The notes below the pieces were generated by a model. The model was not told the DNA's origin. It worked only from the letters and a program-made list of their open reading frames with translations, and searched no databases. DNA of 43,531 nt from Pseudomonadota bacterium. Its GTDB lineage: Bacteria; Pseudomonadota; Gammaproteobacteria; Burkholderiales; Thiobacillaceae. Location: NCBI GenBank assembly GCA_030653935.1, contig JAURYL010000061.1:1-43531 (forward strand). Reading direction: 5' to 3'. This document shows positions 4,653-35,000 of the stretch, piece after piece. The position numbers and the translations under genes were made by a program. Numbering within the stretch: position 1 is the stretch's first letter; every line of letters starts with the position of its first letter.

Positions 4653-5825
4653 ATGTCCCGCCCGCTCATCGCCCGCATCAACCTCGCCGCCCTCGCCCAT
4701 AACCTGGGCGTGGCGAAGGCCGCCGCGCCGTATTCCAGAGTCCTCGTGGCAATCAAGGCCAACGGTTACGGCCACGGCCTCGCCCGGGTGGCGCGCGGCC
4801 TGCGGGCGGCGGATGGCTTCGCCGTGCTCACCCTCGAGGAGGCCACGCAACTGCGCGGCGAGGGCTACACCCACCCCATCGTTTTGCTGGAAGGTTTCTT
4901 CGATCCTGGCGAACTCCAGGAGATTTCCCGCCTGCGCCTGCGTCCGGTGATTCACCGCCAGGATCAGGCGGAAATCCTGACCCGCGCGCGTCTGGATCAT
5001 CGCATCGATGTGCTGCTCAAGATCGACACCGGCATGCACCGCCTCGGCCTCTCCCCCGCCCGGGTCGCGGAAACCCTCGCCACCCTGCGCGCGACGGCGA
5101 ATGTCGGCGGCATCACCCTGATGACGCACTTCGCCTGCGCCGACGACCCAGCCGTGGGCGTCGCGGCGCAATTGGCGGTGTTTCGCGCCTGTCTCCCCCT
5201 CCCCCATGGGGGAGGGGCCGGGGGAGAGGGAGCGAGCGTTAAGCACGCACCTTCGGCTAATTTGGCGTTGTTCCCTCTCCCCAGCCCTCCCCCACGGGGG
5301 GAGGGGGCCTATCCCATCACCCTCGCCAACTCCGCCGCCCTTCTGCGCTACCCGGAGACCCACGGCGACTGGGTGCGGCCCGGCATCATGCTCTATGGCA
5401 TTTCCCCGTTCGCCGGCCAGACCGGTGCCGACCTCGGTCTGCTGCCGGTGATGACCCTGGAATCCCGCCTCATCGCCGTGCAACGCATTCGCAAGGGCGA
5501 CGCGGTCGGCTACGGCGCCACCTTCGTCGCCGAACGCGACATGAGCATCGGCACCGTCGCCTGCGGCTACGCCGACGGTTATCCGCGCCATGCCGGCACC
5601 GGCACGCCGATCTTGGTCGAAGGCCACGTCACCCGCACCCTGGGCCGGGTCTCGATGGACATGCTGAGCGTGGACCTCACGCCTGTACCCAACGCCCACG
5701 TCGGCAGCCCGGTCACGCTCTGGGGCGCCGACCTGCCGGCGGAGCATGTCGCCAGCCACGCCGGCACCATCGCCTACGAACTGCTCACCGCCCTCGCCCC
5801 CCGGGTGCGGGTGGAAGAAACCTGA
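4653..5825 (+). CDS. alr: Alanine racemase with in-frame repeat insertion
   Basis: PLP-dependent racemase that makes D-Ala for peptidoglycan. The N-terminal barrel has the PLP-lysine motif [10 protein letters not shown] (about residue 35), HRLGLSP and MTHFACADD; the C-terminal domain has the catalytic-Tyr region VGYGATF and [11 protein letters not shown]. The product is 390 residues against roughly 355-360 for the family. The excess is a block at about residues 181-219 ([12 protein letters not shown]... [10 protein letters not shown]) encoded by a palindromic repeat at 5193-5307; the frame continues into the conserved [10 protein letters not shown], so the gene remains open. Start at ATG 4653, 31 bases after dnaB. 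All catalytic motifs flank the insertion intact, so activity is plausible. Confidence 0.92.
5193..5307. repeat. Palindromic repeat family A inside alr
   Basis: Left arm CCCCTCCCCCATGGGGGAGG plus GGGGAGAGGG and right arm TTCCCTCTCCCC plus CCTCCCCCACGGGGGGAGGG are near-perfect inverted copies around a unique centre of about 40 bases. The whole unit is translated within alr without a stop. A partial copy lies in trpC at 6286-6327. Confidence 0.85.
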
Positions 5826-5844
5826 GTCTTACCGGAAACCCGCC

Positions 5845-32004: not shown

Positions 32005-35000
32005 CACACCTCCTCCACAGCAAACATCAGGGTATGGAACGTCTCTTCGATCAGGCGGACTTTCCAGGTTTCATCGGGGCGGCGCAGGTTTTCCAGGTTG
32101 TTGTCGCCGTTGACGTAGATCAGGTCGAATTCCCGGTCGCGGGTGTTGTAGGCGCGGAACCAGTCGTCGAGGGCGTCGTTGTCCACTTCAGCGACATTGC
32201 GCCAGAGGATCAAGGCGCGGTCCCCGGCGGGCGTGGTGCCGGTGACTTCGTACACGCCCTTGAGGCGGCGTTGGGTTTTCACGCGCAGGCCGAGCAGGTA
32301 ATTGAAGGTTTCCGCCATGTCCACCTTCACTTCCCGCGTTTCGTCGTTGCGGGTAATGGACAGGGCCACGTTGAACGGGTCGCTAAACTTGTCGAGATTC
32401 AACAGGCTGGCGCGGCTTTCGATGTCCAGCAGGTAATTGAGGAAATAGCCTTCGCGCAGGGCGGGCGCCTGGTCGATCAGGGTTTGCTGGGTGTCGCTGC
32501 GGGCCAGGGCGAGGTTGTCGCAGGTGTCTTCGTAGGATTCGAGGCGGAGGTATTTAGCCAAACCATATGATGCATGGCTTTTGATACCACCAGTTTTTCC
32601 TGCAATTGTTTTTGTTATTCTTGTTCTTGCCAAATAATCAAAGTGAGCCCCGCTTTCAATTCCAATCCACCGCCTTTTTAACTTATGCGCAACAGCCGGC
32701 GTTGTGCCTGAGCCACAAAAAAAATCTAAAATCGTGTCACTTTTATCAGAAAAAAGCGAGAGTATGCGCTCCAACAGCTTTTCTGGTTTTTTGCCTTGCG
32801 ATAAAGAAACCCCACCTTCTAATGCGATCCCCTCCCAGGCAATATCACCCCAGAAATTTGTAATTGTTGTTGTGGGTGTTAGCACACCATCTATCATCTT
32901 CACTTTTTTTGAGTAAAAGGTTATTTCCTTTCCGTTGATGATATACCGGTGTCCATACCCTTGCCGTTCTACGGTAAACACTTTCCCGGGTTGCATTTTG
33001 CTCAGCCGTTTAATATCAACGGTATCCTTTCCTGCACCTTGGTCATCTATTTCCGTAAGCCGGAAGACGCGCTCAGCATTGTCAATCGAATATCGCTCAA
33101 CCTCCTTAGCAAACACCTCTTTGCCTAGTTTTTTTCTTGAAACAATGGGTGATGAGTACCCCAACATTCTTGATGCCTCATCTTGGCATGAGCCAATCTC
33201 CCACGAGATAGGCTCCGCCTCTTTATTTAAGACGATTTTTGAATAATTAGTATCATGCTCGCATGGCACAAACCCATCATTACACCCCGCTGGCGAATTA
33301 CTTTGTTCAAATACATTAATATACTCAGTTGTTTCAAACAGACCTCTATTTACTGTTTTAAACCCCGATGGCGATTTTGTTTTTACGCTTATTTTGTTTA
33401 GCAGATTAAATCTGCCGCCTTTTGTTAAGCATACACACAACTCCGCATCTTCCACATCATTGATGTGCACTGCAAGCGCCCCACCAGCTCGAAGTAGATT
33501 TCTTGCCAAATCCACCCGACCATCCATCATGCTCACCCAACTCGAATGCTCATAAGTGTCTTTATATATAAAGTCTCCCGTCTTTCTATCAAGCTCAGTA
33601 TTAAACGGCGGATCAATATAAATACACTTCACCTGCTCCCGATACCGCTCCCGCAATAAATTCAGGGCCTGGAAATTCTCGCCATGCACCAGCAGGCCAT
33701 TGGTCTGTTCGTCCAGGTTTTCAATATCGCCCAGCAGGGTATCTTTCAGTGACGCGTCGAAAAAGGCCGTGTCCAGGACCAGAAAGGGGTTGGCCTGGAG
33801 GAATTCGGGGGTGAGGGGAATTGAATAAGGAAGCGCTGATATATCCGTCACCCCGGCGAAGGCCGGGGTCCAGGTGGTTGATTTCACTGGATTCCGGCTT
33901 TCGCCGGAATGACGGAATTGGAATAAATCAGCGCGTCCATATGGGGGTGCGGTTTGCTCGAACAATTGCTTTTCCCCGCCGGTTCCCGGCTTGGGGGCGG
34001 CGGGGAGAATTTCATCTATCGCGAACAGCTTCACCCATTCTTCTCGCTGGTTGCGGGTGGCGCCATCCCAGCCACGCACCGGGGTTTCCGCCTGGCGGCA
34101 GATTTCCGGGTAGTGGCGCGCATCAATCCGGTCGAGGGTGATCAGCCAATTCGTCTCCAGGACGAATTTCTTTTTCAGCCAGAGCTTTTTCTGGAAGTTT
34201 TCCAGTTGCGCGAGGAAGGCGATGAGTTTGTGGGCGATGCGGCGCATGGCCTTGATCCGGGCCAGGTATTGCTCCACCGCCGGCGCGGTTTGTTCTTCGA
34301 TGTCGTCCAGGTGCATGACTTCGTTCTTGATGAAGAAGTCGAGTTCGCGGCGCAGGAAGCTGCCGAGGTCTTTGTGGATGAAGTAGTCGAAGGTGTTTTT
34401 CGCGCTGTAGTCGTTGAGGTGTTTTTCCAGGGTGGTGCGGGTCTTGTTCTTGTCCGTGGGCAGTGGCGCGGCGAGGGCGGCGCGCCATTGCGGCCAGTCG
34501 GCCACGTGGGGGAGGGAGAGCGCCGGCAGGCCGAGCAGGCTTTCCACCGCCAGGGCGTTGAGTTCCTTCTGTTTGCGCTTGTCCGGGTCGGGGCGGTATG
34601 CAAAGCGGATGACGAGTTCGCCGTCTTCCACGCTCACCGGTGCGTCGCACAGGATGAAGCGGCGCTCGCCTTCGCCGGTGGCCTTGTTGTTGTCGCGCTC
34701 GGTGCCGGCGGCGGCGAGTTCGAAGCGCACCCGGCCCTGGGGGGTCTTGAAGGCGTAGCGGGTGAAGTTTTCCGCGCTCTTGATGTAGTACTGGTCGGCG
34801 TTGGCCCAGTGCAGTTTCACTTCCTCGCCTTCGTAGGGCAGCGCGTAGACGCCTTCCTTGTAGCGGCGCAGGGACATGAAATCGCCGTTCTGGTAGTAGC
34901 GGCTGAAGAAGGTGTGGAGGTCGGAGTAGACCTGTTCTTCCAGGCGGTCGAGGTCGACGGTTTCAGCAAGTTCAGCGCGCAGTTGTTGCACCTTGGGCGA

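Follow-up and report, generated by a model that had tools for sequence, protein, structure and literature searches.

Palindromic repeats of several unrelated families lie in frame within protein genes of a stretch of DNA of 43,531 nucleotides (the window; contig 5 of a draft genome of 3.82 Mb in 135 contigs, here G000), and orthologous protein sites in other members of the genus are occupied by palindromes of other families. The case is real and extends across the genus, and the phenomenon itself is known. What is new is the quantified re-use of protein sites by unrelated palindromes, together with an unexpected partner, a fusion of a uracil-DNA glycosylase with a RAYT transposase. We consider it probable that the pattern arose by near-neutral spread of REPIN-type and MITE-like palindromes, which would survive in frame at tolerant linkers and whose sites would be hit again.

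In-frame palindromes in six genes of the window

The first-pass annotation of the window had described in-frame palindromes in six protein genes, and this observation, partly confirmed, holds in the main. An ORF check found the frame open through the block in alr (4653-5825) and trpC (5845-6672) on the forward strand, and in the genes of a fused peptide ABC ATPase (19520-21349), an OppC-type permease (21358-22776), a peptide-binding protein (24568-26844) and an N6/N4 methyltransferase (32004-35273) on the reverse strand; the expected domains were recovered by Pfam in the six genes. Strong inverted repeats were present in four of the blocks (5201-5300, 20314-20395, 25308-25405 and 33844-33916). 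The permease block (22170-22300) is a weak inverted repeat, with a score of 9 against 11 in the best control window of the same ORF; what identified it is an 80-bit match to family A. In the trpC block, a search for an inverted repeat of at least six exact bases found none, and the block is a degenerate half.

The presence of several unrelated families in frame within one window was borne out. The alr block (5201-5300, forward strand) is a family D palindrome (CCCTCCCCC type), labelled by eye and with a library match of just 24.7 bits, and the trpC block (6290-6325, forward strand) was likewise assigned by eye to family D. On the reverse strand, the linker between the two ABC domains of the ATPase holds a GTAG-tagged REP dimer of family C (F12; 20314-20395, inverted repeat and library match), while family A (F3) elements lie in the permease gene (22170-22300, library match) and in the binding-protein gene (25306-25405, inverted repeat and library match). 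The methyltransferase gene contains a CGTC-type dimer nested in the outer arms AAGCGCTGAT..ATCAGCGC (33830-33941, reverse strand, inverted repeat), and a composite element of this kind was also found at C56:14879. Between genes, the window carries a CGTC-tagged REP dimer of family B (F4) 3' of trpC (6696-6764, inverted repeat), a GTAG-tagged F2 dimer, GTAGCGCAGGC (15218-15274, inverted repeat and library match), a CGTC dimer between two permease genes (22781-22868, inverted repeat) and a family A element (41138-41237, inverted repeat) between a called gene end at 41103 and a called start at 41270. Additionally, two tandem 176-base copies, 97% alike and with ACGCTCCAGCGT palindromes, are found at 40053-40404, after a gene ending at 40044 and extending into a called start at 40378.

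When aligned with relatives, the blocks look like additions to the proteins. This part of the earlier reading stood for alr, trpC, the ATPase, the permease and the binding protein, in which most relatives either lack the block or have another one; for the methyltransferase a close relative was searched for and none was found, so the addition there is shown by the repeat itself. Judged by alr, the nearest named relatives (80 loci kept) are metagenome assemblies labelled Gallionellaceae, Hydrogenophilales, Thiobacillus and similar, which makes a betaproteobacterium lacking close cultured relatives the likely source. In alr, 135 bases separate the anchors in the window, compared with 33-36 in most of 20 relatives; the exceptions are L022 with the same element, L023 with a different block, and L024 and L027 with smaller extra segments. 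The net gain is 102 bp in alr, relative to both G006 and G011, and 39 bp in trpC, relative to G011. The in-gene length differences measured between alike-anchored slices (102, 102, 39, 102, 21, 54, 36 and 42 bp) are all multiples of three, partly because the sites were read inside open frames; the slices of alr against G019 and of trpC against G006 were anchored differently, and their length differences are meaningless. The intergenic family B site differs in length by 104 bp from the empty site of G017.

The insertion sites fit linkers and loops. The ATPase block lies between the two ABC domains of the protein, and thirteen residues of the window TrpC have no counterpart in the solved structure 6y88. 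In an AlphaFold model of Alr the fold remains confident (mean pLDDT 89.7), and the sole segment below 50 (residues 186-216) lies within the insert, a low value that partly stems from the few aligned relatives carrying the block.

Repeat families and their distribution in the genome

We analyzed a sample of 834 kb (the window and 40 stretches, 21.8% of the genome), in which 198 strong inverted repeats were found. In 443.5 kb there were 89 such repeats, compared with one in a single first-order Markov control. The 153 of the 198 repeats that had at least four places formed the library, which misses rare families and covers family D poorly. It comprises 18 repeat clusters, more than the four families A to D initially distinguished, and a few of these may be immobile (F17 is terminator-like, and F10 and F11 resemble simple repeats).

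A GTAG or CGTC tag marks ten of the 18 clusters as REPs. A GTAG start, in some cases after a few bases, was observed in nine cluster representatives (F1, F2, F5-F8 and F12-F14), as well as in the window elements at 15218-15274 and 20314-20395; most of the entries listed for the GTAG clusters are head-to-head dimers of two inverted units with a spacer, and F13 is represented by one short palindrome. The CGTC tag and the dimer layout were confirmed for the window elements at 6696-6764 and 22781-22868, and CGTCATTCCCGCG, with at most one mismatch, occurs 219 times in the genome versus four times for the reversed pattern. The same unit forms short tandem CGTC-unit arrays at 21-base spacing, nine times in G000:C36:23168-23348 and six times in G000:C94:10-127. 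Family A (F3) starts with CCCCCCTTT and family D (F18) with CCCTCCCCC or alike; because neither carries a GTAG or CGTC tag, we call them MITE-like palindromes and not REPs.

The library detected 257 copies in the 834 kb. Using gene calls from a custom codon-model script, 179 of these are intergenic, as had been proposed for the same families, 39 lie at gene edges and 39 within ORFs. A strict in-gene criterion (coding signal on both flanks) retained 24 of the 39, spread over 22 genes. Matches shorter than 50 bases account for 19 of the 39 and for 11 of the 24, and some of the latter 11 may be chance or decayed matches. The window as the sole place with in-gene repeats was rejected, 21 of the 24 strict copies lying outside it; it contains three strict copies and, with six blocks, is denser than the rest of the sample. 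Elsewhere in the genome, an ORF of 1119 codons (G000:C62:18502-21861; L019/L020) shows matches of 33-38 bases to F7, F18, F3 and F12.

The coding fraction of the sample is 0.897. With edges excluded, copy density is 0.052 per kb in coding and 2.08 per kb in noncoding DNA, so that copies are about 40 times rarer in coding DNA. A copy is held by 185 of 708 gaps between genes (39/78 convergent, 135/554 co-directional and 11/76 divergent). Among library palindromes of at least 50 bases (n=146), 3.49 of six frames are open, versus 2.98 in their shuffles and 2.97 in clean intergenic DNA (GC of 57%, against 63% for the palindromes). In 64 of these 146 the length is divisible by three, a slight excess over a third which is carried by F1 (12/24) and F4 (12/18). 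Since frame openness lies only slightly above chance and coding DNA is depleted of copies, neither a special class of stop-free repeats nor strong selection for such insertions, the two readings offered at first, is supported.

The following course of events is probable. Many families of REP-dimer (REPIN) type, together with MITE-like palindromes, would have dispersed across the genome; of the GTAG-tagged ones, some at least were probably moved by RAYT (Y1, HuH) transposases. They would insert blindly, into gaps and genes alike, after which copies that disrupt a protein would be purged by purifying selection. Being GC-rich and 60-130 bp long, an insert would have a fair chance of an open frame, and would therefore survive where its length is a multiple of three and its place a flexible linker or loop, there to be translated with the host protein. 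Assuming uniform insertion, roughly a fifth to a quarter of the insertions would leave a frame open, and the coding to noncoding ratio of 0.025 would correspond to about one in 8-10 open-frame insertions being tolerated. With few tolerant sites and a high turnover, the same protein site would be struck repeatedly, leaving unrelated palindromes in sister species.

Unrelated palindromes at the same protein sites in relatives

Nine in-gene sites, selected because they are occupied in G000, were compared with the orthologous sequences of relatives. A palindrome was detected at the site in 43 of 145 relatives' sequences, compared with 18 of 1556 control windows (120 bases, from the same ORFs and by the same criteria, HypF being taken once), and 102 of the 145 have no detectable block. 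By library match alone the counts are 38/145 (26%) and 12/1556. An earlier control (90/2511) probably took in the other site of HypF together with sequence 5' of gene starts; a second one (18/1812) used the library match alone and counted HypF twice, with hits in HypF and CopA only. As the site sequences are related by descent, Fisher values on these counts are not probabilities, and as all rows were read inside open frames, frame-breaking insertions or broken genes would be missed.

The rows are genus members, with two genomes of the same family added for alr. Excluded were order-level relatives (alr L042-L050 and others, trpC L151-L155, binding protein L172, L174 and L175, permease L184-L186, L188, L189 and L191, ATPase L213 and L215), a truncated binding-protein row (L173), permease rows with the whole region missing (L192-L195) and genomes without the locus. 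In the RND gene we excluded L276 (below 60% identity), L278 (misaligned, more than 700 bases) and L279-L286 (at most 38% identity), its count of 13 including two G016 paralogs; HypF L307-L309, CopA L334 and L335, and the duplicates L310 and L311 were also excluded. Among the rows counted, stops had been flagged at first look in two (HypF of G005 and CopA of G019). The names HypF and CopA are from NCBIfam matches, that of CopA being under its own equivalog cut-off and over that of copper-translocating P-type ATPases.

Unrelated families share one position at six of the nine sites, or at seven counting trpC, a change of occupant that the first-pass annotation had missed. Its interpretation is partly supported, namely as regards additions, unrelated families and intergenic copies. 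Counting the window and 17 relatives, the ATPase linker holds about six families: F12 in the window, F14 in G011 and G018, family A in G017 and G016, F8 in four genomes, a D-type palindrome in G012 and a GTAGGTTGGG palindrome in G007; G006, a row outside the 145, has family A there. HypF site a (occupied in 11/18 relatives) shows F2, A and D, and HypF site b (7/18) shows A and one other palindrome. At site b of G012 (L301), five tandem family A units lie in frame and add about 190 residues. F14, A and another GTAG palindrome were found at the CopA site (5/21), family A and F2 (GTAG; F2 in G011) at the permease site (3/9), and A, F5 and a CGTC remnant at the binding-protein site (3/15), where G011 has a GTAGGAGCG element. 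At the trpC site (2/14) the window has a D-type half and two relatives have A; a family A half lies here in G006. The alr site (2/20) has D-type sequence in both and no clear family change, and the RND site (0/13) is private to G000. About 16 bp were replaced at the insertion in the RND gene; in two cases with a good empty relative no clear target duplication was found. The gap between the permease genes holds a CGTC dimer in the window, family A in G006 and an element starting with GTAGCCCGGATG in G011, and is empty in G017.

Where congeners carry unrelated families at one position, the flanks are 82-96% identical. The 26% occupancy of the in-gene sites (by library match) is about that of the intergenic gaps (185/708), as expected of near-neutral landing sites. 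These data suggest that a few flexible protein sites serve repeatedly as landing places for palindromes.

The closely similar flanks of congeners, and the number of families at the ATPase linker with family A of G006 besides, would also be expected if an existing hairpin were the preferred target of the next one, by hairpin-directed insertion or by a recombination swap, the family changing while the site stays. Such an exchange would also fit the composite elements at 33830-33941 (a CGTC dimer within outer arms) and at C56:14879. However, the many empty relatives at the RND, alr and trpC sites indicate that an occupied site is not always kept, the occupancy equals that of ordinary gaps, and no hybrid junctions were shown; we regard exchange as unlikely. 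It is still less likely, indeed improbable, that the inserts are selected because Pro/Gly/Arg-rich linker peptides or RNA hairpins benefit the protein or the level of its expression. The recurrent occupation of the same linkers, the five tandem units in HypF of G012 and the filling of HypF site a in most relatives would agree with it, but coding DNA is strongly depleted of copies, one site holds unrelated peptides, most relatives' sequences lack a detectable block, and the codon scores of the elements are mostly about zero or negative where most flanks are positive. Finally, repeats could have been misjoined into genes during metagenome assembly: the genomes are drafts, and the glycosylase-RAYT gene of G006 and G009 (see below) is cut at contig ends. 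We give this practically no weight, as the flanks run on as in relatives and separate assemblies show blocks at the same sites. Near-neutral insertion at tolerant sites remains the probable reading.

REPINs consist of two inverted REPs and a spacer, reach high copy numbers alongside a RAYT in the same genome, and are mostly extragenic. The elements described here share the dimer layout, the high copy number and the presence of a RAYT in the same genome, but unlike REPINs a part of the copies lies in frame in ORFs. Rickettsia palindromic elements, which were reportedly described by Ogata et al. in 2000 and 2002, belong to another lineage, and the resemblance is one of layout only. According to the excerpts available, REPINs with RAYT were described in 2011 (PMC3116915), and the Rickettsia elements are palindromes of about 150 bp, of several families, in frame in unrelated protein genes (PMC10969869, PMC3733652). 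The comparison with Rickettsia made at first is apt, but it missed a closer precedent: GTAG- and CGTC-tagged REP super-families have been on record since 2013, with copies within ORFs of several bacteria (PMC3733652). As far as the excerpts of that study go, the in-ORF copies often comprise 20-30 amino acids, linkers and loops were proposed as neutral places, a RAYT adjoins GTAG repeats (the REPtron layout) and no transposase lies by CGTC repeats, and recB of two Xanthomonas species carries different REPs at about the same site. Our repeats resemble them in the tag tetranucleotides, palindromes, head-to-head dimers, several families per genome and in-ORF copies, and the gap-orientation pattern is similar to that reported there. 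Compared with those excerpts, the differences are the family change at six sites out of nine (or seven if trpC is included), genus-wide and set against control windows and gaps, the untagged families A and D, and a RAYT in frame in a host gene. The enterobacterial repeat units RU-1/2/3 with ORFs are small mobile repeats read in frame in genes (PMC2759123, Delihas 2007); the excerpts of PMC2759123 present single cases and mention no same-site family change, unlike the changes seen here.

A literature search on in-frame insertion of MITEs or REPs found no paper; for in-gene REPs at linkers only PMC3733652 was to the point among the matches listed, and for Accumulibacter none was. Intragenic REPs have so far been described as scattered cases. 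Across this genus an orthologous site can be found empty, occupied or held by another family, and such sites let the insertion rate, the tolerance of a site and the question of whether a hairpin attracts a hairpin be measured directly. The sites also show the origin of some protein linker sequence, and peptides such as VAPASRR may be repeat-derived.

RAYT transposases and a glycosylase-RAYT fusion

Pfam Y1_Tnp detected five genes, and three of these loci have one GTAG family on both sides (L051 with F6, L052 with F2 and L055 with F5), the REPtron layout of GTAG repeats as given in the excerpts of PMC3733652. The NCBIfam model REP_Tyr_transpos matched in both RAYT loci scanned. At L053 and L054, F12 and F7 occur only at 0.8 kb or more. 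Flanking of this kind was not seen for F1, F7, F8 or F12-F14, and none of the five loci has F4 (CGTC) on both sides, one F4 copy lying about 0.9 kb from L053; a cognate transposase for the A, D and CGTC families was not found among the five. The matching flanks are consistent with RAYT-driven mobility of F2, F5 and F6, and the CGTC, A and D families too would have some means of moving.

The F2-flanked RAYT (L052, L336) lies in frame inside a gene for a family 4 uracil-DNA glycosylase (G000:C113:5590-6894). The ORF has 435 codons. Its N-terminal piece is followed by an F2 repeat and by the RAYT, which REP_Tyr_transpos matches at residues 107-216 (82 bits; cut-off 80); then come further F2 repeats and the glycosylase (residues 259-420). 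The whole fusion is in one frame in 8 of 23 genomes and is cut at contig ends in G006 and G009; twelve genomes have the glycosylase part alone, and G013 (58% complete) has RAYT-like matches only. In seven comparisons with G000, dN/dS was 0.07-0.13 for the glycosylase and 0.11-0.28 for the RAYT part, the latter being rough owing to large synonymous distances (0.84-1.69). On this codon-level evidence the fused RAYT is apparently under purifying selection in eight species. Searches found no paper linking a REP-associated tyrosine transposase with a uracil-DNA glycosylase, and on RAYT fusions none to the point among the matches listed.

We put forward only tentatively, and regard as rather doubtful, the combined proposal that the linkers of this genus are shared landing sites where unrelated palindromes replace each other and that, at the same time, the F2-matching RAYT is made as an internal part of the glycosylase, in frame and maintained by purifying selection in eight or more species. 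If it is true, the glycosylase-RAYT could couple the dispersal of repeats to DNA repair or to single-stranded DNA, and a RAYT within a repair enzyme would give a handle on the role of these transposases. A structure model of the fusion was uninformative (mean pLDDT 50.9 on 8 sequences). The linker between the RAYT and the glycosylase is variable and contains repeated F2 peptides.
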